The notes beneath the pieces are model-generated. The model did no database searches. It was not told the origin of the DNA and saw nothing but the letters and a program-made list of their open reading frames with translations. Shown piece after piece: positions 3,434-42,251 of a stretch of DNA of 42,251 nt (its first letter is position 1; each line of letters starts with the position of its first letter). Source of the stretch: Pirellulales bacterium (GTDB lineage Bacteria; Planctomycetota; Planctomycetia; Pirellulales; DATAWG01). The DNA lies in contig DASZFO010000297.1 of NCBI GenBank assembly GCA_035939775.1, forward strand, positions 1 to 42,251. The letters are read 5' to 3'. The translations under genes and the position numbers were made by a program.

Positions 3434-6058
3434 ATGCGCATCAGGGCGACGCTCTTTAGGAGGCTATCCGAAAACCGCCTGCGGAGAGGGGGACAGTCCC
3501 CTTTTGTTGCGAAGACTCCACAAAAGGGGACAGTCCCCGGCGGTTTTCGGATAGCCTCCAAGGTCTTATTGATCGGCGGCGCGGCATTGATTCCTTCGGT
3601 TTTGGCACTATGGAATGCAGCGGCCGATGAAGGGGCGCCGAAGCCAGCCGACAAGCCAGCCGCCGTCGATAGCCCCGGCACGCTAACGAGCATTGCATTC
3701 GATCTGGGGGATGCCGGCGATCGGTTAACGCTCGCCGGCCGCGACTCGCGCCGGCAATTGCTCGTGACTGGAACCTATTCGACCGGGCAGGTTCGCGACC
3801 TGACCCGCGGCATCAGCTATTCGGTCGAGCCGGCCACGATCGCCAAGGTGGATGGCGCCGGCTTGATTTTGCCGCTCGCGGAAGGAGAAGCCACGATCAC
3901 AGCTAAGGATGCATCCGGCCCGAGCGCGACCGTGAAGCTGGGCGTCAGCCATTTGGTCAGCGACTTGCCGATCAATTTTCCGAATCAGATCGTCCCCGTA
4001 TTCACGAAGCTCTCGTGCAACAGCGGCGGGTGCCACGGCAAGGCGAGCGGGCAAAATGGCTTTCGACTTTCGCTCTTGGGCTTCGAGCCGAGTGAGGATT
4101 ACGACCATCTCGTGAAAGAAGGGCGCGGCCGGCGGCTATTTCCTGCCGCCCCTGAGCGCAGCCTGTTATTGATGAAGGCGACTGGCCAGGTGCCGCACGG
4201 TGGCGGCCAGCGGATGGAGAAGGATTCCATTCCGTACCGCCTGATCTATCGCTGGATCGAGCAAGGGCTACCGTTCGGCAAACCGGAGGATCCCAAGGTC
4301 AGCCAGATCGAGGTGTTGCCGACGATGCGCACTTTGCCGCCAAAGGGCCAACAGCAGTTGGTCTGCATCGCGCATTACACGGACGGCTCGACAGAGGACG
4401 TCACTTCGATGACCCAGTTCGAGCCGAACGACACCGAGATGGCCGAAGTCACTCCGACGGGGTTGGTGAAAGCCCGCGATTTGTCGGGCACGGTGGCAGT
4501 GATGGCGCGCTATCAGGGGCAGGTCGCGGTGTTCCGCGCGAGCCTGCCGCTGGGGGCCGTGGTGAAGGATTTGCCTGCGCCGAAGAACTTTATTGATGAA
4601 CTGGTCTTCCAGCAGCTTACGACGCTCGGCGTTCCGCCCTCAGTCAACTGCGACGATTCGACATTTCTCCGCCGCACTTCGCTGGACATCGCCGGCCGCC
4701 TGCCGACCGCCGAGGAGACCGAGAAATTCCTGGCCGACCCTGATCCGGCCAAACGCGAGAAATGGATCGATCGGCTCTTGGAGAGTGAAGCCTACGCGGA
4801 CTATTTCGCCAACAAATGGAGTTCAATCCTGCGGAACAAGCGGCAGCAGGAGAGCTTTGCCCACGGCACGTATCTCTTCCACGATTGGATTCGCCAAAGC
4901 CTCTACGAGAACAAGCCGTACGACCAGTTCGTGCGCGATATTCTGACGGCCTCGGGCGAGATGGGGGAGAATCCGCCGGTGGCCTGGTATCGCTCGGTGC
5001 GAGAGACGAACCAGCAAATGGAAGACACGGCCCAACTGTTCCTCGGCCTCCGGATTCAATGCGCCCGTTGCCATCACCATCCGTTCGAAAAATGGAGCCA
5101 GCAGGATTACTACGGCTTCGAGGCCTTCTTCTCGCGCGTCGGGCGAAAGAAGGGGATGCAAGTGGGCGAAGAGCGGATTTTCCATCAACGCGGCGTGGCC
5201 ACGGCCGTCAATCCTCGGAGCGGACAGACGGTGAAACCGGCCGGACTCGGCGCGAAGACGCTCGACCTGAGCGCCGATCAGGATCCTCGCCAAGCGCTGG
5301 TGGATTGGATGGCCGACTCCAAAAATCCCTTCTTCGCTCGGGCACTGGCCAACCGTTATTGGAAGCATTTTCTCGGCCGCGGGCTGGTCGAGCCGGAAGA
5401 CGACATGCGCGTGACCAATCCGGCCACGAACCCGGCCCTGCTCGATGCGCTAGCGAACGATTTCGCCGAGAGCAAGTTCGACCTCAAGCATTTGATCCGC
5501 ACGATCTGCAACTCGCGCGTCTATCAACTGAGCGCCGAGCCGAACCAGTTCAACGCCGGCGACAAGCAGAGCTACTCGCGCTACTATCCCAAGCGGCTCG
5601 AGGCCGAGTCGCTGTTGGACGCCATCGATCAGGTGACTGGGGTGGATGAAAAGTTCAACGGGCTGCCGGCGGGAACTCGTGCGATGCAATTGCCCGACAC
5701 GGGCTTCAATTCCTATTTCCTTACCGTCTTCGGCCGGCCGGAAGGGGCCAGCGCCTGCGAATGCGAACGGAGCAACGAGGCGAATCTGGCGCAGAGCCTG
5801 CACTTATTGAACTCGGCCGAAGTGCAAAACAAGCTGTCCGCAGCGAGCGGCCGGGCCGCGGCGCTCGCCGCCGACCAGCAGCACACGCACGCGCAGAAAA
5901 TCGAGCGGCTCTATTTGCAGTTCTATTCGCGCCGGCCCGCTCCCGAAGAAACGGCCTTGGCGGTCGCGCACATCGCCAAGACCAAGAACGACAAGGCGGC
6001 CTATGAAGACATCGTCTGGGCGCTGATTAATACCAAGGAGTTCTTATTCAATCATTAA
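3434..6058 (+). CDS. DUF1549/DUF1553 secreted protein with Ig-like and cytochrome c-type motifs
   Basis: This 874-aa protein is exported or membrane-tethered (hydrophobic segment ~42-62). Order: Big2-like Ig-like domain (~83-170), a CNSGGCH motif (CX4CH, residues 195-201) in a planctomycete cytochrome-like region, a second Big2-like domain (~288-373), DUF1549 (~385-590, with IDELVFQQL, FLRRTSLDIAGRLPT and a CARCHHHPFEKW block containing CxxCH) and DUF1553 (~625-860, with NRYWKHFLGRGLVEP and LLDALANDF). Such proteins are abundant in planctomycetes; their biochemical role is not established, although linked cytochrome motifs suggest redox function. A strong AAGGAGGA sits seven bases before ATG 3434. 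A palindromic repeat (3459-3559) is read in frame within the signal region, so residues ~9-42 are repeat-derived. First gene of a four-gene operon. Confidence 0.9.
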   Translation: MRIRATLFRRLSENRLRRGGQSPFVAKTPQKGTVPGGFRIASKVLLIGGAALIPSVLALWNAAADEGAPKPADKPAAVDSPGTLTSIAFDLGDAGDRLTLAGRDSRRQLLVTGTYSTGQVRDLTRGISYSVEPATIAKVDGAGLILPLAEGEATITAKDASGPSATVKLGVSHLVSDLPINFPNQIVPVFTKLSCNSGGCHGKASGQNGFRLSLLGFEPSEDYDHLVKEGRGRRLFPAAPERSLLLMKATGQVPHGGGQRMEKDSIPYRLIYRWIEQGLPFGKPEDPKVSQIEVLPTMRTLPPKGQQQLVCIAHYTDGSTEDVTSMTQFEPNDTEMAEVTPTGLVKARDLSGTVAVMARYQGQVAVFRASLPLGAVVKDLPAPKNFIDELVFQQLTTLGVPPSVNCDDSTFLRRTSLDIAGRLPTAEETEKFLADPDPAKREKWIDRLLESEAYADYFANKWSSILRNKRQQESFAHGTYLFHDWIRQSLYENKPYDQFVRDILTASGEMGENPPVAWYRSVRETNQQMEDTAQLFLGLRIQCARCHHHPFEKWSQQDYYGFEAFFSRVGRKKGMQVGEERIFHQRGVATAVNPRSGQTVKPAGLGAKTLDLSADQDPRQALVDWMADSKNPFFARALANRYWKHFLGRGLVEPEDDMRVTNPATNPALLDALANDFAESKFDLKHLIRTICNSRVYQLSAEPNQFNAGDKQSYSRYYPKRLEAESLLDAIDQVTGVDEKFNGLPAGTRAMQLPDTGFNSYFLTVFGRPEGASACECERSNEANLAQSLHLLNSAEVQNKLSAASGRAAALAADQQHTHAQKIERLYLQFYSRRPAPEETALAVAHIAKTKNDKAAYEDIVWALINTKEFLFNH
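3459..3559. repeat. Palindromic GGGGACAGTCCCC repeat, copy 1, inside the DUF1549 gene
   Basis: Outer arms ggaggctatccgaaaaccgcc (3459-3479, first 20 bases shown by the pairing) and its exact complement at 3539-3559 enclose a core with two ggggacagtcccc palindromes and a ccttttgt/acaaaagg pair. The whole element can fold into one long hairpin and is translated in frame as part of the neighbouring protein's N-terminus. Further copies lie at 34476, 35602, 36393 and 37224. Confidence 0.85.
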
Positions 6059-27497: not shown

Positions 27498-29351
27498 TTA
27501 AGCTGACCCAGGAGACGAACCTGTCGCGCGCAATGTGAACCAGAATGTGCTGCCGTGCCCCGGCTGGCTTTCGACGCCGATTCGGCCGCCGTGGGCTTCG
27601 ACGATTTCCTTGCAAAGCGAGAGCCCAAGGCCGGCGGCGCCGGCGCTAGAGCCCGGGATGCGGAAGAACCGCTCGAAGATGGCCGCGTGGTATTCCTTCG
27701 GAATTCCTTCGCCGGTGTCGCTGATCTCGAACCGCACGGCTGAATCGTCGGCGATTCCACGGACGCGGACGATTCCGCGATCCGGCGTATGCCGCAGGGC
27801 GTTGGCGATCAGGTTGTGAAAGACGATCTGAATCCTCTCGACGTCGGCCATCACCTGTTCGTGGATCAAGAGCGATTCGGCTTGCAACTGAATCTGCTTC
27901 TCGGCCGCCGCGCCGTGCAGCGGCACGACGGCTTCTTCAATCAGCTTGGCCGCGGCGACCGGCTGCAATTCCATCTCCATGCGGCCCGACTGGATGCGAG
28001 CCAGATCGAGCAGCTCGTCCACGGTGGCCTGAAGTCGCTCGCATTCCTCGCGGGCGGCGTGCAGAAGATCGGCCTGCTTGTCGGTCAAGGGGCCGGCAAC
28101 TCCTTCCAAACACAGATGCACGGCCATGCGGAGCGACGTGAGCGGCGTACGGAATTCGTGGGCAACCGTGGCTACAAGATTGTTTTTCAGCTCGTCGAGG
28201 CGCCGAAGCCGCGTCACGTCTTGGAGGATGGCGGTCGCGCCGGTAATCTTCCCCTCGTCTTCATAGACCGGATTGGCCCGCAGCAAGAACCAGCGATGCC
28301 CCTCGGCGCTGGGGACGTCGAAGGCGTCCTCGAAACCGTTGGGCAAGAACGCCCCTTTGCCCTGCAAGACGTGGGCCTTCGCACGATCGAGCGCCGAGCG
28401 CACGGCAGGTGGGAGCGTGACGAGGGTCTTCGAATCGGGTTCAAGACCATTGGTCTGCCAGAGCGAATCGGCCGCGCCGTTGGCCTTGAGGATGTTGCCT
28501 TCGGCGTTAAAGACGATCACCGGATCGGGGATGCTATCGATCGTGGCCTGCGAGGCGCGCTGGGCGAGCAGCAACTCACCGAGCGAACTCTCGCGGTATT
28601 CCTGTAAGTGCTCGGCCATCAGATTGAATTGCGTCGCGAGCTGCCCGATCTCGTCGCGGCTCATCACGAGCGCACGGGCGGCGAAGTCTTTCTGCCCGAG
28701 GCGGTTCACGGCCATAGTCAAGAGCGAGAGCGGGCGCAGCAGGCGTTGCGTCAGGAGGATCGAAGCGAGCGCCCCGACTACGAGCGCGCCGATCGCGACG
28801 GCGGCCACGATCGAGTTCGTCAACTGACCGGCGCGCAGCGCCGCGTCGGCCTTGCGCTGCATCGCAATCTCATTGATCTGCAAAATCTCGTCCGCATCAT
28901 CTTTGACGACGACGAATTGCGGCTGCAAGATGTCGAAATACTGCTTGTTCATCTGCTTGAGATCGGTAAGCTTCAAGTAGTCGGTCAAAAGGCCTTCGTA
29001 TTTGGTCCAAGCGTCTCTCAGCGTCTTGGTCGCCACGTCTTCGCGTTGATCGAATTCCGTGATGTTGTTCTCTTGGACCTGCAGTTCAGCCGCGAACTTG
29101 TTCCGATGCTCGGCGATTTGCGGCTCGGCCCGGTTCCTCTCTCCCGCGACGATGAAGATCGCGGCGCTGTCGAGCCGCTCGATCGATTCCTTCATCCGCT
29201 GGGCGGCCAAGACACTGCGGTAGTTGTCCTTGAGAATCAGTTCGGATTGGTGGCTAAGCGCCGATACTCTCCAGACAGCGACGACCCCCAGCAACACCAG
29301 CGCCAGGGCGAGAGGTAGTTGGGCAAGCAAGAGTTTCGCGCGGAGGCTCAT
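27498..29351 (-). CDS. Membrane histidine kinase (HAMP-PAS-HisKA-HATPase), partner of the KdpD sensor domain
   Basis: This 617-aa kinase has TM1 (~7-29), a periplasmic four-helix-type sensor, TM2 (~179-201), a HAMP linker, a PAS domain (~268-385), HisKA with phospho-acceptor His398 (HEFRTPLTSLRMAV) and a HATPase domain (N box NLIANALRHT, G box DTGEGIP, GLGLSLCKEIV). It starts at ATG 29351, overlapping the stop of the KdpD-like gene (ATGA), so the two are translationally coupled. In classic KdpD these parts are in one protein with a DUF4118 membrane domain; here DUF4118 is replaced by a HAMP/PAS sensor. A larger open frame upstream (to 29744) is an overlap with the neighbour. The likely response regulator is the NtrC-type gene at 37431, since no KdpE is seen. 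Confidence 0.88.
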   Translation of the reverse strand: MSLRAKLLLAQLPLALALVLLGVVAVWRVSALSHQSELILKDNYRSVLAAQRMKESIERLDSAAIFIVAGERNRAEPQIAEHRNKFAAELQVQENNITEFDQREDVATKTLRDAWTKYEGLLTDYLKLTDLKQMNKQYFDILQPQFVVVKDDADEILQINEIAMQRKADAALRAGQLTNSIVAAVAIGALVVGALASILLTQRLLRPLSLLTMAVNRLGQKDFAARALVMSRDEIGQLATQFNLMAEHLQEYRESSLGELLLAQRASQATIDSIPDPVIVFNAEGNILKANGAADSLWQTNGLEPDSKTLVTLPPAVRSALDRAKAHVLQGKGAFLPNGFEDAFDVPSAEGHRWFLLRANPVYEDEGKITGATAILQDVTRLRRLDELKNNLVATVAHEFRTPLTSLRMAVHLCLEGVAGPLTDKQADLLHAAREECERLQATVDELLDLARIQSGRMEMELQPVAAAKLIEEAVVPLHGAAAEKQIQLQAESLLIHEQVMADVERIQIVFHNLIANALRHTPDRGIVRVRGIADDSAVRFEISDTGEGIPKEYHAAIFERFFRIPGSSAGAAGLGLSLCKEIVEAHGGRIGVESQPGHGSTFWFTLRATGSSPGSA

Positions 29352-30496
29352 CGGCGCGGCTCCTTGTCGTCGAGCGACACGATGTGCAAATCGAAGCCGC
29401 GAGCTTCGTGGACCAACCGGTCGATCATGCTCCGCCCCAGGATGCGCTTCCACCAGGGTCTTTCCGAGCGGCCAATCACGATGTGACCGACGCCACGCGT
29501 GCGGGCGAAATCCAACAGCGCGGTCACCACGTCGTGCGCTTGGAGCCGAATCACCTCGGCCCCCAACTCCTTGGCCATCGAGATCGTGGCGATCAATTGC
29601 CGCTGCACGGCCGAATCGATGCGATTGGGGGCCTCGCCGGGCGTTTCCACATAGACGGCATACCAATCCGTATTGAGACGCCCAGCCAGGCGCGAGCCGC
29701 GCCGCAACAGGGCCGCCCCGCGCGGCGATTGCGATGCAATGCAAACCATCACGCGCTCGATAGTCGATTTGTGATCGTCGCCGCCGGTTAAACTCACGGC
29801 AGCGGTCCGATCGATGCTCTCGGCGACTTCGCGGAGTGCCAATTCCCGCAGGGCCGCGAGATTCTCCTGCCGGAAGAAATTGCCGAGCGCCGTATCGACT
29901 TTTTCCGCCGCATAGATTTTGCCCGACTTCAATCGATCGACCAGGTCTTCGATCGCCAGGTCGAGATTGACGATCTGATCGGCCTGCTTGAGAAAGGTGT
30001 CAGGAACCGTTTCGCGGATGACGACGCCGGTCGCCCGCTCGACTACGTCCTTGAGGCTCTCCAAATGCTGAATGTTAAGCGCCCCAATGACGTTGATTCC
30101 CGCGGCCAGGATGTCTTGCACGTCCTGGTAGCGCTTGTTGTGCCGCGAGCCTGGGGGATTGGTGTGCGGGAGTTCATCGACGATTGCGACGGCCGGATGC
30201 CGAGCCAGAATGCCGTCGAGGTCCATGTCGTCCACCTGGAAGCCGCGGTATTCCACCTTGCGGCGCGGCACGACCTCGAGCCCGTCGATGAGCGCGGCAG
30301 TTTCCGATCTGCCATGCGTTTCGACGAAGCCGATCACCACGTCCGTGCCGCGCTTTTGCAAGGCATGGGCTTCTTCGAGCATCCGGTAGGTCTTGCCCAC
30401 TCCGGCCGCGAAGCCGACATACAGCTTCAGCCGCCCTCGCTTGGAGCGCTCGACCAGTTCCAGAAAGTCTTCAGGACGTGGCTGCGCGCGAGTCAT
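29348..30496 (-). CDS. KdpD N-terminal sensor domain with universal-stress-protein domain (split KdpD)
   Basis: The 382-aa protein (ATG 30496; a TTG at 30517 is less likely) holds the KdpD domain: RLKLYVGFAAGVGKTYRML (Walker A, ~24-42), VAIVDELPHTNPPGSRHNKRYQDV (Walker B block), GINVIGALNIQHLESL, and DQIVNLDLAIEDLVDRLKSGKIY. A USP domain follows (~235-382, starting RVMVCIASQ; GHIVIGRSERPWWKRILGRS). In full KdpD this cytosolic half senses K+ and ATP status (and, in some bacteria, c-di-AMP) and is followed by DUF4118 and a kinase. Here it ends at TGA 29348, inside the start of a separate HK gene. The KdpD-only layout is known in other phyla, but the fusion partner differs. Confidence 0.93.
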   Translation of the reverse strand: MTRAQPRPEDFLELVERSKRGRLKLYVGFAAGVGKTYRMLEEAHALQKRGTDVVIGFVETHGRSETAALIDGLEVVPRRKVEYRGFQVDDMDLDGILARHPAVAIVDELPHTNPPGSRHNKRYQDVQDILAAGINVIGALNIQHLESLKDVVERATGVVIRETVPDTFLKQADQIVNLDLAIEDLVDRLKSGKIYAAEKVDTALGNFFRQENLAALRELALREVAESIDRTAAVSLTGGDDHKSTIERVMVCIASQSPRGAALLRRGSRLAGRLNTDWYAVYVETPGEAPNRIDSAVQRQLIATISMAKELGAEVIRLQAHDVVTALLDFARTRGVGHIVIGRSERPWWKRILGRSMIDRLVHEARGFDLHIVSLDDKEPRR

Positions 30497-30503
30497 GTGG
30501 TCT

Positions 30504-30848
30504 TCAGTTCGCCCCAAACTGGATGACGAGTCCTCCGAGAATAATGATGGCTAGTCCGGCCCAGGTCGAGAGCGGAATATGCTCATCGAGCGCGAACCGC
30601 CCAGCGAGAACGCTGACGAGGGCAAAAGCACCGACATAGACGCCGATTAACTTCGAGAAGTCCCATTTTACCGTGTTGACGACGACCCCATAAGTCGCCA
30701 ACAGCAGCCCGCCGCCGACAACCCAGGGCACACCGCCTCCGCGCAATCCTCTGCGAGTGACGGCATCACCTCCAGCTTCGATGGCGGCCGCAGCAAGAAA
30801 CACGAGCCATGCGACGGCGGATAAATCCCGTTGGTGCATGGGGGTCAT
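30504..30848 (-). CDS. Small four-helix membrane protein (EamA/SMR-like) in the kdp-1 operon
   Basis: The 114-aa protein starts at ATG 30848 overlapping the kdpC stop (ATGA). It has four hydrophobic helices: AVAWLVFLAAAAIEA, GVPWVVGGGLLLATYGVVV, LIGVYVGAFALVSVLAG, and STWAGLAIIILGGLVIQF. This size and the repeated small-residue helices resemble drug/metabolite (EamA) or small multidrug-resistance transporters. The position between kdpC and the KdpD sensor, with the KdpD start only 7 bases after its stop, suggests a role in the K+ response, but no function is established. The name is tentative. Confidence 0.65.
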   Translation of the reverse strand: MTPMHQRDLSAVAWLVFLAAAAIEAGGDAVTRRGLRGGGVPWVVGGGLLLATYGVVVNTVKWDFSKLIGVYVGAFALVSVLAGRFALDEHIPLSTWAGLAIIILGGLVIQFGAN

Positions 30849-31465
30849 TTTGCCGCTGGCTTGGGGCGCCCGAATTGGCGGTCCAACGCCAAATTCAAGG
30901 ATAGCACGTTCACGCGCGGCTCGCCCAACAGGCCGAAAGTGGGCGACTCGATCTGGTCCTTGACGACCTGTTGAACGCGCTCGGGCTTTTCGCCGCGTGC
31001 CTTGGCAATTCGCGGCACTTGCCAAAGAGCGGCCTGAGGGGACAGATTCGGGTCGAGTCCACTGGCTGACGTCGTGACAAGTTCGTCCGGGACGGGGCCG
31101 CTGGCGTCTGGATTTTCCTTTTGCAATCGCTCGACGTCTCCCTTGATGCGATCATACAGCGCCTGGGACGTAGGGCCGTAATTCGACGCCCCGGAATTCG
31201 TCGCGTTGTACGGTTTCGGCTTCGATGAATCGGCCTCGTCGTTGGTTGCCGAGGGGCGCGGCTGGACATAGGCCGGGTTCGTGAAATTCTGCCCGATCAA
31301 TTCCGAGCCGATGACAACCCCTTTGTCGTCGGTGACGAGGCTGCCGTTGGCTGCGTGAGGCGCGATCACCTGGGCCAAGCCTGTCATCAAGAAGGGATAC
31401 ACGATCCCAGTCAGAACCAGCGTCACGAGCGTCACGCGCAGGGCGATCATCAATTCGGATTTCAT
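30845..31465 (-). CDS. kdpC: Potassium-transporting ATPase subunit KdpC (kdp-1)
   Basis: The 206-aa protein (start ATG 31465, GGAG about ten bases upstream) has one TM (~8-30, TLVLTGIVYPFLMTGLAQVI) and the KdpC periplasmic domain: ANGSLV, GSELIGQNFTNPAYVQPRPSA, ASNYGPTSQAL, DELVTTSASGLDPNLSPQAALWQVPRIA, and FGLLGEPRVNVLSLNLALD. It stabilises the KdpA-KdpB complex and may raise K+ affinity. It starts 4 bases after the kdpB stop and overlaps the next gene's start, confirming one operon. Confidence 0.96.
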   Translation of the reverse strand: MKSELMIALRVTLVTLVLTGIVYPFLMTGLAQVIAPHAANGSLVTDDKGVVIGSELIGQNFTNPAYVQPRPSATNDEADSSKPKPYNATNSGASNYGPTSQALYDRIKGDVERLQKENPDASGPVPDELVTTSASGLDPNLSPQAALWQVPRIAKARGEKPERVQQVVKDQIESPTFGLLGEPRVNVLSLNLALDRQFGRPKPAAK

Positions 31466-31469
31466 TATC

Positions 31470-33575
<2,106 letters not shown>

Positions 33576-33585
33576 AATGGAAACC

Positions 33586-35580
33586 TTAATAAAGTTTGCC
33601 TTGGCCGGCGAGGAAGTGCTCCACAATCGGCCCCAGGCATTGCGCGGGAAAGAACGTCAAGGCGCCGACGATGACGATCACGCCGACCAATAGCACGGTG
33701 AATAGCGGCCCGTTGGTTGGAAACGTGCCCAGGCCCGGGGCCACCGTCTTCTTGCCCACCATCGAACCGGCGATCGCCAGCACGGGAACGATCATCAGAA
33801 ACCGCCCGGCGAGCATCACGATCGCTATCGTGACGTTCCAAAAATTCGTATTGGCATTGATCCCGGCGAACGCCGAGCCGTTGTTGCCGGCCGCGCTGGA
33901 ATAGGCATAGAGCATCTCCGAAAGCCCGTGCGGACCGTTGTTGTTGAGGGCCGAGCCCGTGGGGGCATGCTCTTTGTCGGAGTACCAATTGTCGGGCAGG
34001 TCGGGCACGGGCGCCTTATAGTCTGCCGGCGGTTTGGCCGGCGCCGGATGAGCCTTGGCGAAATCCGCTGCATAATCCGCGGCTCGCTTTTCGTAAACCG
34101 CCGACCAGCCGGCAAATCCGAGAATGATCGCCGGGAAAATCAGGATATAGAACATCGCGTACTTCATCTCGCGCGACTCGATCTTCTTACCTAGGTACTC
34201 GGGAGTGCGCCCGACCATCAGACCGGCGATGAAGACCGACAGGATGACGAACACGAGCATCGCATACAGCCCGGCCCCGACGCCGCCGAAGATCAATTCG
34301 CCGAGTTGAATGTTCGCCAGCGGCACCAGCCCGCCGAGCGGCGTGAAGCTGTCGTGCATGGAATTGACGGCGCCGCACGAGGTGTCGGTCGTCACGGTGG
34401 CGAACAGGGCCGAATTCGAGACGCCAAAGCGGACTTCCTTCCCCTCCATGTTCCCTTGCGGCTGAGCGATCTTGAAGCCTATCGGAGAACCGCTTGGGGA
34501 GAGGGGGACAGTCCCCTTTTGTTCCGAGGACTCCACAAAAGGGGACAGTCCCCGGCGGTTCTCCGATAGGCTCTTGGCCTTCTCCGCGACGGACGGAGTT
34601 GCCGCCGCCAGATCGGCCTCGAGCTTGTGGATTACCGGGTTGCCGCCGGATTCCGCCCAATAGGCGACGCTCACTCCCGTCAAAAACAAGAGCGACATCG
34701 CCGCGAAAATCGCCCAGCCCTGCCGTTGGTCGCCGGCCATGCTGCCGTAGGTGTAAGTCAAGGCGGCCCCAATGCTGAAGATCAACAGCAGCTCGACGAA
34801 ATTAGTCAGTGGCGTCGGGTTCTCGAACGGATGTGCGCTATTGGCGTTGAAGAATCCGCCGCCATTGGTGCCAAGTTCCTTGATCACTTCCTGCGAAGCC
34901 ACCGGGCCCATTGCGATGGTTTGCTTCCCGCCGTCGATGGTGGTCACTTCTTGATACGGCGAGAAGTTCTGAATGATTCCCTGCGTCACCAAAAACAGGC
35001 CGACCACGACGCTGATCGGCATTAACACGTACACGATCGAGCGAATCATATCGACCCAAAAGTTGCCGATCGTTCGCGCGGCGTCAGGGGCTAGGCGGCG
35101 TGTCAGCCCACGGGCCACCGCCAGCGCGACCGCAATCCCCGCCCCGGCCGATACGAAGTTATGCCACGCCAAGCCGGCCATCTCGCTGAGATAGCTCATC
35201 GTCGTTTCGGGCACGTACGACTGCCAATTCGTATTCGTGTTGAAGCTGACCGATGTGTTAAAGGCCAAATGTTCGGGCACTGCGGGCAATCCCTGCGGAT
35301 TGAGCGGCAAACGGTCTTGCAATCGCAGAATCCCATACGTGACGACGATGCCGAACAGACTGAACGCCAAGAGCGCCAGCGCATAGCGCTGCCAGGTTTG
35401 CTCGCGTTTTGGATCGACACCGCAAAGCCAATATAAAAACCGCTCGGTTGGCCCAAAGAACCGCGGCAGCGGTTGTTTCGAGCCTTCGAAGACTCGATAC
35501 ATGTACGCCCCGAGCGGCTTGGTGATCGCGAAGATCAGGACCGAAAACAGGCCGATTTGCAGCCAACCTTGCAGAGTCAT
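33586..35580 (-). CDS. kdpA: Potassium-transporting ATPase K+ channel subunit KdpA (kdp-1) with repeat-derived insert
   Basis: The 664-aa protein starts at ATG 35580 ([12 protein letters not shown]). The four K+-pore loops are clear: [51 protein letters not shown], and [15 protein letters not shown]. Typical KdpA is ~560-600 residues; the extra comes from a palindromic repeat translated in frame at residues ~336-368 ([16 protein letters not shown]..), between the AESGGNP and [10 protein letters not shown] landmarks in an extramembrane loop, and from a further insert before the fourth pore (~residues 510-550, [11 protein letters not shown]..). It channels K+ toward KdpB. Confidence 0.96.
34476..34573. 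repeat. Palindromic GGGGACAGTCCCC repeat, copy 2, inside kdpA
   Basis: The outer arms agcctatcggagaaccgc and gcggttctccgataggct enclose the same core as copy 1 (two ggggacagtcccc palindromes and ccttttgttcc..acaaaagg). Copy 1 reads gctatccgaaaaccgcc in its arm; the paired changes on both arms keep the stem intact. The frame is preserved and the repeat is part of the KdpA protein. Confidence 0.85.
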
Positions 35581-35601
35581 GGGGAAACTTCGTCCTTTAG
35601 T

Positions 35602-35699
35602 GCGGCTAACAAATCCGGCGGGGACTGTCCCCCTTTTGCGCAGTCCGCGGAGCAAAACGGGGACTGTCCCCTTCTCTCAGCCGGATTTGTTAGACGCGC
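35602..35699. repeat. Palindromic GGGGACTGTCCCC repeat, copy 3, between kdpF and kdpA
   Basis: Arms gctaacaaatccggc and gccggatttgttagacgcgc enclose the core in the opposite orientation (ggggactgtcccccttttgcg .. caaaacggggactgtcccc). It fills the whole kdpF-kdpA gap and ends exactly at the kdpF stop codon, so it would be in the operon mRNA as a strong hairpin just before the kdpA start. Confidence 0.85.
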
Positions 35700-35789
35700 T
35701 TAAAAATGTTCGGGGCGCACGAGCGCGTAAAGAAGATAGATGGTCAACAGCACCGTGACGATGCCGCCTAAGAGAAACTCGATGTCCAT
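35700..35789 (-). CDS. kdpF: KdpF, small membrane stabiliser of the Kdp complex
   Basis: This 29-aa single-helix protein reads MDIEFLLGGIVTVLLTIYLL followed by YALVRPEHF, ending at TAA (35700-35702). The pattern of one hydrophobic helix followed by (L/Y)YALxxPExF at the C-terminus is diagnostic of KdpF, and it directly precedes kdpA. In E. coli KdpF sits at the edge of KdpA and stabilises the complex with lipids. It is too short for usual gene callers. Confidence 0.93.
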   Translation of the reverse strand: MDIEFLLGGIVTVLLTIYLLYALVRPEHF

Positions 35790-35831
35790 GCGATATTTCC
35801 TGATGCCGTCGGCAGGGATGGGTCTTACGAC

Positions 35832-35915
35832 TTAGCAGTGCTCGCAGGCGCGAACGTATAGCCAACAGACCGCGAAAAATACAACGCAAGCGCTCACGAA
35901 AACTGTGTCCCACAT
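35832..35915 (-). CDS. 27-aa membrane peptide at the head of the kdp-1 operon
   Basis: The 27-codon frame (ATG 35915, TAA 35832) encodes MWDTVFVSACVVFFAVCWLY then VRACEHC: one hydrophobic helix with a short polar Cys-containing tail. Many kdp operons have an equally small helix peptide ahead of kdpF with a similar 'FF..A..YV..C' pattern (from memory, no search done). It lies 42 bases upstream of kdpF and about 44 bases after the predicted start of transcription, so it should be the first gene of kdp-1. Function unknown; it may be an additional stabilising helix or a leader peptide. Confidence 0.65.
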   Translation of the reverse strand: MWDTVFVSACVVFFAVCWLYVRACEHC

Positions 35916-35970
35916 AAACAGATTCCCCGCGTCGACTCTTGATTCCGAATAAACGTTGCCGGCAATGGAG

Positions 35971-35985
35971 GCAATTGGAGTGCCA
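35971..35985 (-). promoter_or_regulatory. Sigma-54 promoter for the kdp-1 operon
   Basis: On the minus strand the sequence is TGGCACTCCAATTGC. It has GG and GC doublets separated by exactly 10 bases and matches the consensus TGGCACG-N4-TTGC at all fixed positions except the G after TGGCAC. Transcription would start near 35959, about 44 bases before the 27-aa peptide gene. It implies that kdp-1 needs a sigma-54 activator, in line with the NtrC-type gene at 37431. Confidence 0.78.
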
Positions 35986-36063
35986 AACTCCTGGCGGACG
36001 CGCCAAGCAGCATCAGCGCAGCATCTTAAGGAACATTTACGCGGATGGCTTCCATCCCCGAGC

Positions 36064-36220
36064 ATTGCATCTTGCACTGAAGTCACGATGCGGCAATGCA
36101 AAATGCAATCACCGATCAGGATCGACTAAAGCCGCTAAGAGGACTGCGACCTGAGACATACCAGGCGACTGTTCGCTTCGACGCCCTGCAATTCGCAGGC
36201 GGAATATCGCAATATGCAAC
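36064..36220. promoter_or_regulatory. Candidate enhancer with four TGCAA-N2-TGCAA-type sites between divergent sigma-54 promoters
   Basis: Sites: 36064-36076 (TGCAAGATGCAAT on the minus strand), 36097-36109 (TGCAAAATGCAAT), 36187-36199 (TGCAATTCGCAGG) and 36208-36220 (CGCAATATGCAAC). Each holds two TGCAA-like half-sites 7 bases apart. The first two face each other as an inverted repeat. They lie ~105-260 bp upstream of both predicted start sites, the usual distance for NtrC-type activator binding, and their midpoint (36142) coincides with that of the two start sites. The binding protein is inferred. Confidence 0.5.
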
Positions 36221-36297
36221 CCGCCGGCGGACCGCGTCCGCGGCGATTGATTCTCGAAATCATTCCCCGCCACGGGCTTACGCGATCTTGATGGCCG

Positions 36298-36313
36298 CGG
36301 CACGCTCCTTGCT
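36298..36313 (+). promoter_or_regulatory. Sigma-54 promoter facing the orphan actuator-domain gene
   Basis: The plus-strand sequence is CGGCACGCTCCTTGCT, matching TGGCACG-N4-TTGCW at all fixed positions but the first. The GG-N10-GC spacing is exact. Transcription would start near 36324, leaving a ~290-base leader that contains palindromic repeat copy 4 before ATG 36614. Its divergent partner is at 35971-35985. Confidence 0.72.
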
Positions 36314-36392
36314 TTCATCCGAGTCGTCATTCGGTTCGTTGATCACGCGGCCCTGTTTAGAATTGCCGATCGATTCGCTGCCATCACGATTC

Positions 36393-36498
36393 AGAACCCC
36401 TCACAAAGCTGCCGGGGACTGTCCCCATTTTTGCGCAGTCCGCGGAGCAAAAACTGGGGACTCTCCCCTTCTCCCAGGCAGTTTTGTGGGGGGTTCTT
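36393..36498. repeat. Palindromic GGGGACTGTCCCC repeat, copy 4, in the leader of the orphan gene
   Basis: Arms agaacccctcacaaagctgcc and ggcagttttgtggggggttct pair with few mismatches around the same core as copy 3 (ggggactgtccccatttttgcgc .. gcaaaaactggggactctcccc). Its arms differ in sequence from copy 3 but again stay complementary to each other. Confidence 0.8.
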
Positions 36499-36613
36499 GG
36501 AGCACTTAACAATCCCTCTTGATGGCCGCGAGTTGTCGGTTTCTTTCTCTTCGCCCGAGAAAGGCTGCACGACCGGCGCCGCGGCCATCATTTTTTCTGC
36601 CGCAAGGTGTGCC

Positions 36614-37210
36614 ATGACCATCACTAATGTTCGCATCGCGCCGTACATTCGCGGTCCCGAACTTGATCCCGAATCGGTGAAAACGCCCTCACCGGCGAAT
36701 TGGATTCGTCGGTTGACGCGGCTTTGGGGCAGAGTTTTTGGAAACTCCACTGAATGCGGCGAGCAGCCTGCGATCGCTGCCTCGCCGGTTTCAAAAACGC
36801 ACTGGGCTTTCCGAGCGGTCAATTACCACCGACTTCACGCCGCGGGGATGCCGTGCGTAATCGCCGCGCCCTCGATCGCGGCCGGCATCTCGTCACATCT
36901 CGAACTCGAAGCGATCGTGCCGTCCGAATTGCAAGTGGGCGACGTCTTCCTCGTCGAGTCCGGTCAAACCATCTTTGCCGACGGCCTGATTCTCGAGGGA
37001 ATCGCCATAGTCGACGAGGCCGTCATTTCCGGCCAATCGGCGCCCGCCCTGCGTTCGGCCGATGGAGATAGCGCCGTCATGCGAGACAGCCACGTCATCG
37101 AAGGACAGATTCTAATCGAAGTGGCGCCCCGCCGCGGCCACCCACTGGATTGGATTAGCGAAGCGACCGTGGTCCGATGGCCGCCCGCGGCCGCTGTCGC
37201 TCGAAGATAG
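36614..37210 (+). CDS. Stand-alone KdpB actuator (A)-domain-like protein with inactivated TGES motif
   Basis: The 198-aa protein has no membrane segment. Residues ~102-180 align with the KdpB actuator domain: SELQVGDVFLVESGQTIFAD, GLILEGIAIVDEAVISGQSA (Kdp[40 protein letters not shown]), then PALRSADGDSAVMRDSHVIE matching the [18 protein letters not shown] region. The catalytic TGES loop, whose Glu drives dephosphorylation, is S139-G140-Q141-S142, so Glu is lost while the Ser is kept. Residues 1-100 are unassigned. AAGGTG lies seven bases before ATG 36614. The frame is open back to 36431 through a repeat. It runs divergently from kdp-1 behind a sigma-54 promoter and could bind or regulate KdpB; a decaying kdpB fragment is the alternative. 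Confidence 0.72.
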   Translation: MTITNVRIAPYIRGPELDPESVKTPSPANWIRRLTRLWGRVFGNSTECGEQPAIAASPVSKTHWAFRAVNYHRLHAAGMPCVIAAPSIAAGISSHLELEAIVPSELQVGDVFLVESGQTIFADGLILEGIAIVDEAVISGQSAPALRSADGDSAVMRDSHVIEGQILIEVAPRRGHPLDWISEATVVRWPPAAAVARR

Positions 37211-37223
37211 CATTCGCGGTTAA

Positions 37224-37310
37224 GAGCCTATCCGAGAACCGCCGGGGACTGTCGCCTTTTGTGGAGTCTTCGGACCAAAAGGGGACTATCCCCCTCTCCG
37301 CGAGCTAAGA
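37224..37310. repeat. Palindromic GGGGACTGTC repeat, copy 5 (degenerate)
   Basis: The left arm agcctatccgagaaccgccg and the core (ggggactgtcgccttttgtgg .. ccaaaaggggactatccccc) are present, but the matching right arm (expected ggcggttctcggataggct) is missing and replaced by unrelated bases. It sits between the converging orphan gene and the NtrC-type gene and may help terminate both. Confidence 0.7.
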
Positions 37311-37330
37311 GCGCTTCACAAAACCGGAAT

Positions 37331-37408
37331 GGGTGCCATGCCCACGGCTCGGCGTGGGCAGGAGCCCCAATGAGGCATGGCCACTCAGGGCAGTGGCCAT
37401 GGCACCCA
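37331..37408. repeat. Nested palindrome GGGTGCCATG..CATGGCACCC
   Basis: The outer arms gggtgccatgcc and ggccatggcaccc enclose an inner hairpin tgcccacg..cgtgggca. It follows repeat copy 5 between two converging genes, a place suited to a bidirectional terminator. Confidence 0.6.
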
Positions 37409-37430
37409 ACGATTCAGCATTAAGGCTCCG

Positions 37431-38822
37431 CTAGGCATCGCTTCGCTCCGGACCCTCGTATTTCTTCCGTTTTCGCCACAGCGTCGAGCTGTCGATGCCG
37501 AGGATCCGCGCGGCGTCGTCCAGTGTGGCGCTGCGCGCAAGCACGGAGAGAACGTGTTGGCGCTCGATCTCCTCCAGCGAGAAATCGCCCCCCAACTGCG
37601 GCGATGAGCCACTGCGCGAATGCATTCGCTCGGGCAAGGCTTGTGGCTCGACCACCTGCGCCGGCCAAAGGATGACGGCACGTTCCATCGCGTTGCGCAG
37701 CTCGCGAACGTTGCCGGGCCAGGCGTACGACAGCAGCACCTCTTCCGTCGCTTTCGACATTTCGGGCGTGGGCCGTCCGACCGAATGGCCGAAGAACGCC
37801 AGGAAGCGCCGCGCGAGAATGATGAGATCTTCCGGCCGCTCGCGCAATGCGGGAACGTGAATCTCGATCACGTTCAGACGAAATAGCAGGTCCTCGCGAA
37901 AATGGCCGGATTTCACATCGACTTCGAGATCGCGATTGGTCGCGGCGACCACCCGCACGTCGGCCTTGCGCGTGCGCGTCTCGCCGAGCCGCTCGAACTG
38001 CTTTTCCTGCAAGAATCGCAGCAGCTTAGCTTGCAGACCGGGAGTGATTTCGGCGATTTCGTCGAGAAAGAGCGTGCCACCTTCGGCCGCCTCGACGCGC
38101 CCCGGCTGATCGCGCACGGCGCCGGTAAACGCCCCTTTCGCATGACCGAAGAGTTCGCTGGTCAGCAGGTTCTCGGAAAGCGTAGGACAGTTGACAACGA
38201 CGAACGGCTTCGTGCGGCGCCGGCTTTGAGCGTGCAGGGTGCGGGCCAGCACTCCCTTGCCCGTGCCGCTTTCACCGCGCAGCAGCACGGCCACTTCCGA
38301 ATCGGCAGCCCGGCCAAGCACGTCGAGCGCCGCCTGCATTTTCGGCGACCGCGTCTCGAGCACTGTCTCGGGCACGGCCAGCTTGAGCTGCTGGTCGAGT
38401 TCGGCCAGTCGGCCGAGCGTGGCCATTCGTTCGGTGAGCTTGGCGACGAGGTGGCGGATCTGATCGGGCGTGAAGGGCTTTGGGAGATAATCGGCGGCCC
38501 CGCGCTTGATCGCCTCGACGGCCGTGTCGAACGTCGCGTAGGCAGTGAGCACCACCGCGGCCAGGTTCGGATTTTCAGCTAACAGCTTGGGCAGCAGATC
38601 CAGCCCGCTCGATTCGCCGATCTTGAGATCGACGAAGGCCACGTCGAACGGCCGCTGAGTGACCGCCGCCAAGGCCATTTCAGCCGAGGCCGAGGCAACT
38701 ACCTCGCAGCCGATGTCTTCCAGGCAAACGGCGAGCGTGCGACGGATGTTTTTTTCGTCGTCAACGACAAGCACCCGCAGGCCTCGCATCGAGGATGCGC
38801 CAAGTTGCTCGGGCCGGGGCAT
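37431..38822 (-). CDS. NtrC-type sigma-54-dependent response regulator
   Basis: The 463-aa protein (ATG 38822, GAGG seven bases upstream; an open extension to 38885 is unlikely) has a receiver domain (~14-125) with the acidic DDE pocket (VVDDEKN), phosphorylated Asp65 (AFVDLK) and Lys of the KPF motif. The AAA+ domain holds Walker A GESGTGKG (183-190), the sigma-54 contact loop GAFTGA (230-235) and Walker B LFLDEI. A Fis-type helix-turn-helix ends the protein (~415-460, [21 protein letters not shown]). It is placed next to the sigma-54 promoter of kdp-1 and downstream of kdp-2, and no OmpR-type KdpE is seen. I infer that it is phosphorylated by the kdp-1 kinase and activates the Kdp promoters. 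Confidence 0.93.
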
Positions 38823-38898
38823 GAAATCCTCGTGCCTATGCCGGAATAGCAAGGCAATCTGAAGGACGATTCGTGTGACAGCCAACGCGGAGGGGCCA

Positions 38899-38967
38899 TT
38901 ATAGCAAAAAGGAGTCCGCGTGCTTCCACCGCCATGTCGAGACGCTGATGCCCAGGATGCTCGGCAG
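38899..38967 (-). pseudogene. Fossil of a Fis-type helix-turn-helix (third copy)
   Basis: On the minus strand the frame reads LPSILGISVSTWRWKHADS after an in-frame TAG and ends at TAA 38899. It aligns with [19 protein letters not shown] of the neighbouring regulators (ILGI..ST.WR.K), and at DNA level with gagcatcctgggcatcagcg. It is the remnant of an additional regulator gene between the shrunken regulator and the NtrC-type gene. No start or other domains remain. Confidence 0.55.
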
Positions 38968-39023
38968 CTACGATGCGGCGGAGTGAGCCGGCAAAGAATG
39001 TGGTGACGCTCCTTCGAGTCGCG

Positions 39024-39407
39024 TCACGATAACTCGTATTTCTTCCGCTTTCGCCAAAGGGTCGAAAGGTCGATGCCCAGGATGCGGGCCGCCTCGTCGA
39101 GCGTGCTGGTCCGAGCCAGGACCGCCGAAACGTGACGGCGCTCGATCTCGTCAAGCGTGAAGTCGCCGCCGAGATCCGGCAGGCATTGTGCATAAACCTG
39201 CACGGATTGGGCAAATGCTTGTGGGCCGACGTCAGACGCGCGCTCGATGGCGGGGAGCAATTGCTCGGGTGAACGTGCCGCCGCGGCCTCGCAGCCCGCG
39301 CCCGCAGCGTAGACCGCGAGTGAGATGCGATCCTCCTTGTTGTTGGCAATTGTGAACACGCGCACAGGTTGCGCGGAAGACCCGTTGGGTGAGTCGTGTC
39401 GCGCCAT
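39024..39407 (-). CDS. Shrunken NtrC-type regulator: degenerate receiver start fused to a Fis helix-turn-helix
   Basis: This 127-aa protein is homologous at both ends to the regulator at 37431 but lacks the AAA+ domain and most of the receiver. Residues ~15-58 (VRVFTIANNKEDRISLAVYA..GCE) align with [23 protein letters not shown]; the acidic pocket DDE is NNK, so phosphorylation is unlikely. Residues ~79-125 match its C-terminus in about 38 of 47 positions (LGGDF.L.EIER.HV...[25 protein letters not shown]). The reading frame survives across the junction. It lies 36 bases after kdpC of kdp-2, hence probably in that operon. It may bind the same sites without activating, acting as a repressor or decoy; it may also be a decaying gene. 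Confidence 0.75.
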   Translation of the reverse strand: MARHDSPNGSSAQPVRVFTIANNKEDRISLAVYAAGAGCEAAAARSPEQLLPAIERASDVGPQAFAQSVQVYAQCLPDLGGDFTLDEIERRHVSAVLARTSTLDEAARILGIDLSTLWRKRKKYELS

Positions 39408-39443: not shown

Positions 39444-40511
39444 TTACGGCTTGCCGCCGGTCGTCGCTCCGTATTTGTTGTCTAGTGCGAGGTTGATTTC
39501 CAGGACGTTGACCATCGGCTCTCCCCACGCGCCGCCCAGGGGAGCCGAACTCTTTTCCTTCAGCAAGGTTTCAATTTCGTCGTGGACCTTCTTCACGTCG
39601 GCCTTGGTGTCCTTGGCCCAGGCCCCGGCCACGCCATCCAATTGGAACATCGCGTTGGCCAAGGTGATGTGCGGATCGAGCCCGGAACCGGACGTTGTCG
39701 CCCAATCGCCGGGAACGTCGTTCAATTCAACAGTCGGATTGTCCGTCAGCCACATGTCGAAGAAATGCGCTTGGATGTCAGTCTGAGTATCGGAGCCCTT
39801 GTCGACAGGCTCGATGGCCGTCGTGCTGGTCTTGCCGTCAGCCGACATGTGGGTCACCGACGAGGGGAATTTGCCCGGATGCTCTTTAGAAAATGACTCG
39901 AAGAACACCATGGCCAAATCGGACGGCGAGGGATCGGAATTGTCGGGATTGTCTTTTTTGAACTTCTCGACGATTGCCGCGTGAGTCTTCTCCCAATCCA
40001 ACACATACTGCTGCTGCGGCGTGGGATTCTTGGCATCGAATGTCGTGCCGACCCATCCCTGGGCCACACTGTTGTGGAGATCGGCCCATTGGGCCACGAT
40101 CGACGGCTGGCCTTGGAATTTATCCTTGTGGAACCATTCCTCGACATCGGGAGCGACATTCTGGTCCTTCTTGGGACCGGTCTTATACGTGACGACCGGG
40201 CCGAGCGCATTGGCTACGCGATCCCGCAGCGCATAATTCGACACCGCCAGCGCCGACGACGTGGACGAAGTCGCATCGTAGGGCGTCGAGATCGCCGAGG
40301 GGCGCGGCGTAAAATGCTCGGGTTTCGCAAATGGCTGGGCGATCAACAACGATCCCACAGGCTTGCCGTCCGGTCCGTTGACGATGCTGCCGTTGGCCTG
40401 GAAGGGAAACACGGTCTGGCCGATTCCCCACAGTACCAGCGGATAGATGACGCAACAGATGACGACCGAAAAGAGCAGAAGCCAGAGGCTCTTGGAAATG
40501 ATTTTGAACAT
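39444..40511 (-). CDS. kdpC: KdpC subunit with a ~165-residue insertion (kdp-2)
   Basis: The 355-aa protein starts at ATG 40511 (GGAG about nine bases upstream). TM ~7-29 and KdpC landmarks are present: FQANGSIV, GSLLIAQPFAKPEHFTPRPSAIS, ALAVSNYALRDRVA at the front; SGSGLDPHITLANAMFQLDGVA and LGGAWGEPMVNVLEINLALDNKYG at the back. Normal KdpC is ~190-210 aa. Between the two halves is an extra region (~residues 100-265) rich in Trp, Asp and Lys (VEEWFHKDKFQGQPSIVAQW) that I cannot assign. It lies outside the membrane and could add a ligand or partner site. It follows kdpB-2 by 28 bases. Confidence 0.92.
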   Translation of the reverse strand: MFKIISKSLWLLLFSVVICCVIYPLVLWGIGQTVFPFQANGSIVNGPDGKPVGSLLIAQPFAKPEHFTPRPSAISTPYDATSSTSSALAVSNYALRDRVANALGPVVTYKTGPKKDQNVAPDVEEWFHKDKFQGQPSIVAQWADLHNSVAQGWVGTTFDAKNPTPQQQYVLDWEKTHAAIVEKFKKDNPDNSDPSPSDLAMVFFESFSKEHPGKFPSSVTHMSADGKTSTTAIEPVDKGSDTQTDIQAHFFDMWLTDNPTVELNDVPGDWATTSGSGLDPHITLANAMFQLDGVAGAWAKDTKADVKKVHDEIETLLKEKSSAPLGGAWGEPMVNVLEINLALDNKYGATTGGKP

Positions 40512-40539: not shown

Positions 40540-42251
40540 TCAGGCCATGTGCAGGGCGACCATCATCGGGTAAATCACGACGTCGATTAATTTGATGCCG
40601 ATGAACGGCAGGACTACGCCGCCTAGACCCCAAATCAGCAGGTTCTTGCGCAGCAGCGCATCGGCCCCCAGCGGCTGATACTTGACCCCTCGCAACGCCA
40701 CTGGAATCAAGGCCGGGATGATCAAAGCGTTGAAGATCACCGCCGACAGGATGGCCGAGGTCGGCGTATGCAGATACATGATGTCGATCTTCTTCAGCCA
40801 CGGCAGCGTGCCGGCGAACAGCGCCGGGATAATCGCGAAATACTTCGCCACGTCGTTGGCGATCGAGAAGGTCGTCAGCGCGCCGCGGGTCATCAGAAGC
40901 TGCTTGCCGATCTCGACGACTTCGATCAGCTTGGTCGGGTCGCTGTCGAGGTCCACCATGTTGGCCGCTTCCTTTGCGGCCTGGGTGCCGGCATTCATCG
41001 CGAGCGCGACGTCGGCCTGAGCAAGAGCGGGGGCGTCGTTGGTGCCATCGCCCATCATGGCGACGAGCTTACCTTCGGCCTGCTGCTTCCGCAGGTATTC
41101 CAGCTTGGTTTCGGGCGTGGCTTGCGCGACGAAGTCGTCCACTCCGGCTCGCTTGGCGATGGTGGCTGCCGTGAGCGGGTTGTCGCCCGTGATCATGACA
41201 GTTCGAAGCCCCATCTTTCGCAGCCGCTCGAAGCGCTGTTCCATCTCGGGCTTGAGAATGTCCTCGAGCACGATGACGCCCTTGATCTGATTTCCTTCGC
41301 AGACGGCCAGGGGCGTGGCGCCTTCCGACGCAATGCGCTCAACGACTTTGGTCATTTCCGTTGGCACCATGCCCCGCTCCGCTTGGACAAACCTCGCGAT
41401 CGCGTCGGGCGCGCCCTTGCGAATCCGTCGACCGTCGTCGAAATCGACGCCGCTCATCCGCGTTTGCGCGGAGAACGCGACGAATTGGGCCGAGGTCGGT
41501 AGATCAGCGTGGTTCTTGGCTTGTCCCTCGTAAAGTTTGACAATGCTTTTCCCCTCCGGCGTCTCGTCCGCCGCCGAGGACAGAGCGGCCAATCGGCCAA
41601 CCTCTTCGCTCGAATGATTGCCGACGGGTATGAACTGAGTCGCATGGCGATTGCCCACCGTGATCGTTCCGGTCTTGTCGAGGAGCACAAGATCCACGTC
41701 GCCGGCCAGCTCGACCGCCTTGCCGCTCTTGGCGATGATGTTCGCCTGGAGCGCCCGCTCCATGCCGGCGATGCCGATCGCGGCCAACAGCGCGCCGATT
41801 GTCGTTGGGATCAAGCAAACCAACAGGGCTACGAGCGTGGGGACGTCGGTGCCGAGGCTGTGCAACGGGTCCGAAGAAAGGCCAAATTGACCCACCATGT
41901 ACTGTTCGGCTTGGTAAGCCATCGGCCACAGCGGGATGACAACGATAAGAAAGATCAATGTCAAGGCGGAGAGGGCCAGAGTGAGCGCGATCTCGTTCGG
42001 GCTGCGTTGGCGAATGGCGCCTTCCACCAGTGCGATCATCCGATCGAGGAATGATTCGCCGGCCCCGCTCGTGATGCGAACCACGATCCGGTCGGAAGTG
42101 ACCGTCGTGCCGCCGGTGACACCGGAGCGGTCGCCGCCCGATTCGCGGATCACGGGGGCCGATTCGCCGGTTATCGCTGACTCGTCGATCGAGGCGATCC
42201 CTTCGATGATCTCGCCGTCGCCGGGAATGACTTGTCCCGCCTCGACGACAA
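40540..42251 (-). CDS. kdpB: Potassium-transporting P-type ATPase KdpB, second system (5' end beyond window)
   Basis: The frame is open from the right window edge ([20 protein letters not shown]..) to the stop at 40540, so the N-terminal membrane part is missing but ~570 residues are visible. TGES is intact (ITGESAPV), and [31 protein letters not shown], and [12 protein letters not shown] are present, so the pump is likely active. Compared with kdp-1 KdpB it has a longer loop after the second membrane pair ([16 protein letters not shown]). kdpF and kdpA of this set should lie just outside the window. It is part of an operon with the long kdpC and probably the shrunken regulator. Confidence 0.96.

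Follow-up and report, generated by a model that had tools for sequence, protein, structure and literature searches.

Introduction

The RegA/PrrA/ActR proteins combine a full phosphorylatable receiver with a Fis-type helix-turn-helix (HTH) and have no AAA+ domain. Fis itself is said to descend from an NtrC-type protein, a proposal associated with Morett and Bork in 1998. For the kdp potassium pump genes the described counterpart is DVU3334, which we take to be an NtrC-type regulator. It is an experimentally mapped regulator of its own kdp operon in Desulfovibrio vulgaris; upstream of the Kdp genes of that organism the putative site of another regulator overlaps that of DVU3334, and the DVU3334 binding motif is conserved in two relatives (PMC3333781, partial text). 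The NtrC of Caulobacter is without GAFTGA and has lost the usual engagement of sigma-54, but still binds DNA and regulates (PMC10274813, partial text). The isolated DNA-binding domain of NifA is a monomer in solution and nevertheless recognises its UAS specifically, while DNA-binding domains that include a helix A dimerise stably (PMC10590331, partial text).

Here we describe a short gene, mini, that lies beside a gene for a full-length NtrC-type regulator, REG, in a 42,251-nucleotide stretch of DNA from a Pirellulales bacterium; this whole stretch is called the window (Table 1). The likeness of mini to RegA/PrrA/ActR lies in its receiver-derived N-terminus and Fis-type HTH with no AAA+ domain, and the difference in its half receiver, which has neither the acidic residues nor the phospho-acceptor Asp, and in its being the immediate paralogue of an NtrC-type protein. 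Like Fis and the phage Fis-mimic NinH it carries a stand-alone Fis-type HTH, but unlike these it is a copy located next to its parent and retains a receiver stub (PMC7166090, partial text). REG resembles DVU3334 as a kdpFABC regulator accompanied by a split KdpD/UspA protein and a separate kinase, whereas mini, without receiver function and AAA+ motor, differs from the full-length DVU3334 (PMC3333781, partial text). The Caulobacter NtrC retains both AAA+ domain and receiver, while mini has neither (PMC10274813, partial text). Within the literature searched, which lay mostly outside the subscription journals, no AAA+-less paralogue of a Kdp or NtrC-type regulator was found as an antagonist beside its parent.

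Table 1. Features of the window considered in this study
Feature	Position	Strand	Remarks
mini, 127-aa AAA+-less REG paralogue	39024-39407	-	receiver stub 1-60, linker 61-79, Fis HTH 80-126
inferred deletion junction in mini	39222-39230	-	about codons 60/61; from alignment, exact breakpoint blurred by divergence
third Fis-domain coding relic, frameshifted	38926-39011	-	between mini and REG; DNA similarity
REG, NtrC-type response regulator, 463 aa	37431-38822	-	receiver + AAA+ with GAFTGA + Fis HTH
putative REG/mini site	36065-36077	.	TTGCA-N3-TGCAA type, 1 mismatch
putative REG/mini site	36096-36108	.	TTGCA-N3-TGCAA type, 1 mismatch; 31 bp from the 36065 site
putative REG/mini site	36207-36219	.	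TTGCA-N3-TGCAA type, 1 mismatch
sigma-54 (-24/-12) promoter-like TGGCACTCCAATTGCC	35970-35985	-	between the three sites and kdpA1
kdpA1	33586-35655	-	first large gene of kdp1 operon
kdpB1	31470-33626	-	kdp1 operon
kdpC1	30845-31489	-	kdp1 operon
kdpD-N	29348-30517	-	kdp1 operon
histidine kinase	27498-29744	-	kdp1 operon
kdpC2, long planctomycete-type KdpC	39444-40511	-	directly upstream of mini; KdpC family 3.6e-49
kdpB2	40540-42251	-	5' end lies past contig edge

Results

Domain structure of mini

The open frame of mini comprises 384 bp read from 39407 to 39024, with an ATG start, 127 codons and no internal stops; the plus-strand translation of the same interval is interrupted by stops. The initial annotation had proposed a 127-aa protein at this position, to which the minus strand can now be added. 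Pfam recognises the Fis family HTH_8 (PF02954) in mini at 1.6e-10, above the cut-off, and finds neither a receiver nor an AAA+ family there, whereas REG has both in addition to HTH_8, so the AAA+ motor is missing as had been proposed. The C-terminal Fis-type HTH is a trait of NtrC-type bacterial enhancer-binding proteins and is present in mini; the GAFTGA-loop AAA+ domain of NtrC-type sigma-54 activators is found in REG but not in mini. As for the traits of RegA/PrrA/ActR, mini has the HTH directly behind the receiver part with no AAA+ domain, and its receiver, with respect to the acidic pocket and phospho-acceptor Asp, is incomplete. NCBIfam returned a weak DhaR match and nothing else, and a phmmer search of mini against solved structures gave zero matches.

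A single-sequence structure model of mini is weak overall (mean pLDDT 66) and usable only for approximately residues 80-126, where a Fis-type fold is predicted with pLDDT of about 75-89 in blocks. The HTH gave fold matches to 2m8g (prob 1.00, E 0.36) and 3e7l (prob 0.99, E 1.1), and the best fold matches of mini were the DNA-binding domains of NtrC1 and NtrC4, ranked above Fis. Model confidence is low for the receiver stub, which cannot form a receiver. The model also predicts a helix at residues 62-79, preceding the HTH, that would suit a helix A; we regard this as suggestive only.

Probable origin of mini from REG

Starting at the initiator Met, residues 1-60 of mini are colinear with residues 1-61 of REG; 22 of the 60 are identical, and the BLOSUM62 score is 79, compared with a mean of 24.7 and a maximum of 51 in 2000 shuffles. 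The claim that mini keeps the start of a receiver is therefore borne out. At the other end, alignment with the protein encoded at 37431 gives an identity of 38 of 47 over the final stretch compared (LGGDF to KKYE), exactly the figure that had been given as approximate, and the 11 residues of the Fis recognition segment are the same in both proteins. Residues 62-391 of REG (330 residues) are absent from mini and the reading frame is kept. Because the phospho-acceptor Asp (D65 of REG in our numbering) falls inside this deletion, it is lost from mini altogether. One detail had to be corrected: the acidic pocket was originally read as changed from DDE to NNK, while the alignment gives ANN with the next Lys kept.

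The stub scores higher against the receiver than against the AAA+ domain in 35 of 38 REG-type proteins (mean 63.8 vs 33.6). These direct scores led us to drop an origin of the stub from the lid or end of the AAA+ domain, as appeared in one unconstrained MAFFT alignment. A chance open reading frame was likewise ruled out, by the end-to-end colinearity with REG and the Fis identity.

When the position of mini among related regulators was compared by likelihood, pairing it with REG was the best of four placements for both the Fis part (-1587.2, next -1589.2) and the stub (-1908.5, next -1911.3). The pair had support of 81 (SH-aLRT) and 99 (bootstrap) in a full-length tree in which mini is placed on the columns of REG, and was not recovered in a tree from the shared short columns alone. 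With both ends colinear and this placement preferred, the earlier proposal that mini is an internally deleted copy of the adjacent REG is supported.

Age and selection

The 38 identical residues of the Fis part are encoded by only 21 identical codons, and comparable orthologue pairs have 12 to 19 identical codons of 35 to 36. Synonymous sites are thus almost saturated, which makes the duplication and deletion event old. Compared with 37 delta-type REG orthologues, the Fis part of mini is identical at 28-35 of 47 positions and that of REG at 30-36, whereas in the receiver stub mini matches at 8-16 of 45 positions and REG at 23-30.

A codon model with a separate branch for mini was applied on fixed trees to 16 of 44 aligned sequences, using 47 codons for the Fis part and 45 for the stub; L024, L028 and L050 had been left out of the alignments as below the length limit, and L014, L068, L080 and L082 for internal stops. 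For the Fis part, omega on the mini branch was 0.038 against a background of 0.051, and omega=1 was rejected with 2dlnL of 11.46, a level that none of 43 neutral simulations attained (maximum 6.9), in a test whose weak points are saturated synonymous sites, branch lengths near or at the bound and a weakly penalised home-made likelihood. For the stub the same test gave 0.18 against 0.08 in the background (2dlnL 8.4). With the three other placements of mini, 2dlnL for the rejection ranged from 6.4 to 20.0 for the Fis part, the lowest value marking a weaker rejection under one of them, and from 4.5 to 10.3 for the stub. The GC content by codon position of the C-terminal part of mini (0.67/0.45/0.72) can be compared with that of REG (0.71/0.44/0.77) and the spacer (0.60/0.58/0.58).

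Statistically, the Fis half of mini is under purifying selection and evolves as slowly as in functional REGs, while the stub is relaxed. This slow evolution, together with the rejection of neutrality, argues against a simple pseudogene: within the limits of the omega test, neither neutral evolution nor a broken frame was found. That the frame had survived the deletion, as was claimed at the outset, holds for the open frame and for the selection detectable on its Fis half.

The same spot contains a third, frameshifted Fis copy. The interval 38926-39011 matches the Fis coding sequence of REG with a DNA score of 43, reached by 0 of 500 dinucleotide shuffles, and that of mini with a score of 35, reached by 1 of 500. 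The spot has therefore carried at least three Fis ends, one full, one short and open and one broken.

The kdp neighbourhood

On the minus strand mini lies upstream of REG with a gap of 201 bp; the length of REG is counted from the ATG at 38822, and its open frame reaches upstream to a TTG at 38885. Only 36 bp separate kdpC2 from mini on the same strand, which makes the assignment of mini to a second kdp operon (kdp2), as in the initial annotation, a reasonable one. Just ahead of mini or REG we found no terminator-like site, no TTGCA-N3-TGCAA palindrome at up to two mismatches and no minus-strand -24/-12 site at up to three mismatches, so that cotranscription of mini and REG with kdp2 is likely. 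RpoN is encoded in the genome.

REG is 60-70% identical to regulators of Deltaproteobacteria and Myxococcota (metagenome-assembled genomes (MAGs) and isolates) and of one Rhodopirellula-labelled MAG, but its identity to the best regulators from the window's own order is no more than about 50%; REG-like proteins also occur in other planctomycete classes, as found in the phylum search. The order REG-kdpA-kdpB-kdpC-kdpD(N)-kinase, which in the window runs along the minus strand between 38822 and 27498, is found again in loci L058 and L057 and in part in L021, L024, L050 and L055. By contrast, kdpC2 resembles the planctomycete type, with 53-60% identity in L064 and L071. REG and kdp1 (27498-38822) therefore look acquired from outside and set beside a native kdp2, as these similarities suggest in place of a rooted tree.

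Several other features of the neighbourhood were observed. KdpC2 (39444-40511) has 355 aa, and the KdpC family matches it in two pieces around a long insert. An open frame at 30504-31025, between kdpC1 and kdpD, resembles a small membrane protein. Between REG and kdpA1, a plus-strand KdpB-like fragment at 36923-37141 has 41% identity to residues 157-230 of KdpB1 and is, judging from its sequence, the remnant of yet another kdp copy. A dispersed palindromic element with the core CGGGGACTGTCCCC occurs at 35596-35703, 36393-36497 and about 37222-37305 and inside kdpA1 (approximately residues 361-388); the last copy is apparently inserted in frame, and the others are close to gene ends.

A second contig of the same bin, C312, carries a kdpB with 87% DNA and 95% protein identity to kdpB2. 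The compared stretches, 40560-42249 of the window and 1-1687 of C312 (locus L104), both run into contig edges, and the two contigs have a 43-base end in common. Possible explanations for C312 are a further copy, a second strain within the bin, the lost beginning of kdp2 or an assembly fork.

Candidate binding sites

The palindrome TTGCA-N3-TGCAA emerged when sequences preceding kdpA and REG were compared. Across the 40 loci L020-L059, the upstream zones (22,900 bp) contain 17 exact matches and the remaining 476,240 bp contain 4, and matches with up to one mismatch number 32 upstream, in 23 of the 40 loci, and 12 elsewhere; because close relatives, and some loci used in motif discovery, are among the 40, the enrichment folds are not independent. 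Among six planctomycete-type loci, up to one mismatch, the zone between kdpA and REG has hits in three (5 hits), with 2 hits in 83,876 bp outside. Upstream zones with the palindrome come from the L020-L059 set and from L065, L068 and L071, and the palindromes are often paired, about 21 to 33 bp apart.

At up to one mismatch the whole window has only the sites at 36065, 36096 and 36207, which make up the region that the initial annotation had nominated for DNA binding. Upstream of the native-type kdpA on C312 are two sites with one mismatch each (L104 4416 and 4437, the latter to 4449), two weaker sites and a -24/-12-like sequence at 4321. Elsewhere in the genome the exact motif occurs at 5 palindromic places, compared with 2 for a control pattern; in the stretches fetched around these 5 places there was no Kdp-type gene and no -24/-12 site at up to one mismatch. 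Exact hits away from kdp mean that the motif is not perfectly specific.

From its recurrence, TTGCA-N3-TGCAA is probably the binding site of NtrC-type Kdp regulators across phyla. It may already have been published, as the DVU3334 motif. The identical recognition segment, together with the occurrence of a cross-phylum motif in the region proposed, makes it likely that mini and REG share sites.

Distribution of mini

Mini is known from one genome. A search of 396 genomes from the order, with E 1e-6 as the limit, gave matches in 12, of which only the genome of the window had a short frame of its own; a 62-aa frame in genome G148 belongs to a regulator truncated at a contig end. Among 392 genomes of the phylum there were 17 matches at 1e-8, with the short frame again confined to this genome. 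The search of 40 REG-bearing genomes, covering 40 of the 43 loci found, gave full-length regulators throughout, except for G400, cut by a contig end, and G404, which is frameshifted. The regulator of M. vastator (L042), short-looking in the search table, proved to be full length. No mini was found among the open frames upstream of 14 delta-type REG loci. For the sampled genomes we therefore rejected the idea that mini is an accessory conserved with these regulators. One other genome from the window's family, of a different genus, is without mini and has a native-type regulator; with a single family relative of another genus, the uniqueness of mini says little about its function.

Discussion

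The best single explanation of these observations, to which we give a little under even chances, is that mini is a retained, motor-less DNA-binding paralogue of REG that would compete at the kdp enhancers. An old tandem copy of REG would have lost 330 codons in frame, comprising half of the receiver, including its phospho-Asp, and essentially the whole motor. The product may then act as a constitutive, phosphorylation-blind DNA-binding protein. With the identical recognition segment and the predicted Fis fold, mini should bind the sites of REG; by itself or in mixed dimers with REG it would occupy the TTGCA-N3-TGCAA sites that precede the sigma-54 kdp promoters, and this occupancy would damp transcription driven by REG. 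To judge by the absent AAA+ motor, mini is unable to activate. As it has neither receiver nor motor it can neither sense nor activate, and competition at the enhancer would be the simplest effect, which makes a "built-in antagonist" plausible. Lying just ahead of REG in the kdp2 unit, mini would be produced alongside the activator, and the outcome could be negative feedback or a cross-operon restraint of kdp1.

A larger scheme is conceivable, though less likely than not: the kdp2 unit would encode a decoy, kept by selection, followed by its parental activator, and both would act on the same enhancers at two pump operons, so that one pump restrains the other. This arrangement would have arisen inside a single genome, once a foreign kdp cluster had come to lie next to the native one.

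The foremost rival is decay: mini would be a pseudogene, an old REG duplicate in the course of being lost, whose frame is open by luck and whose product is inert. The frameshifted third Fis copy next door indicates that the locus also yields pseudogenes and keeps decay a live rival, and the eroded receiver stub and the absence of mini from every other genome examined fit the same picture. Against it speak a Fis half that remains 81% identical despite near-saturated synonymous sites, the rejection of omega=1 on the mini branch and a GC content by codon position in the C-terminal part like that of REG and unlike that of the spacer. We consider decay unlikely.

Selection confined to the Fis part is compatible with any DNA-binding role, and a DNA-binding fragment could also be neutral or helpful. 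Mini might accordingly be a stand-alone DNA-binding protein with another job, such as an independent repressor, a Fis-like architectural protein or a half-filler of paired enhancers that aids the loading of REG. The pairing of the enhancer sites at about 21 to 33 bp and the proposed derivation of Fis from an NtrC-type protein speak for such a job. However, the recognition segment is unchanged from REG and points to the REG sites, and we know of no other target of mini; such a separate job is distinctly improbable.

That mini is an independently acquired piece of some other REG-type gene within this family is very improbable, since the weak grouping with L026 and L035 in the shared-column tree (55/46), and a Fis identity of 35/47 to L020 and L021, about what many orthologues share with one another, are outweighed by the position of mini next to REG on the same strand, by REG having the highest Fis identity (38/47) and by the pairing with REG being the best of four placements by approximately 11 lnL summed over both segments.

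Whatever the role of mini, the palindrome is a concrete candidate for the site bound by NtrC-type Kdp regulators in Myxococcota, delta-lineages and Planctomycetota. If mini does compete in this way, a single deletion would have sufficed for a sigma-54 regulator, which normally depends on phosphorylation and an ATPase ring for its activity, to yield a natural competitor, much as Fis is proposed to have arisen from an NtrC-type protein, but with the parent still adjacent. The locus would then also offer a testable case in which potassium pumps of seemingly separate descent are wired together.
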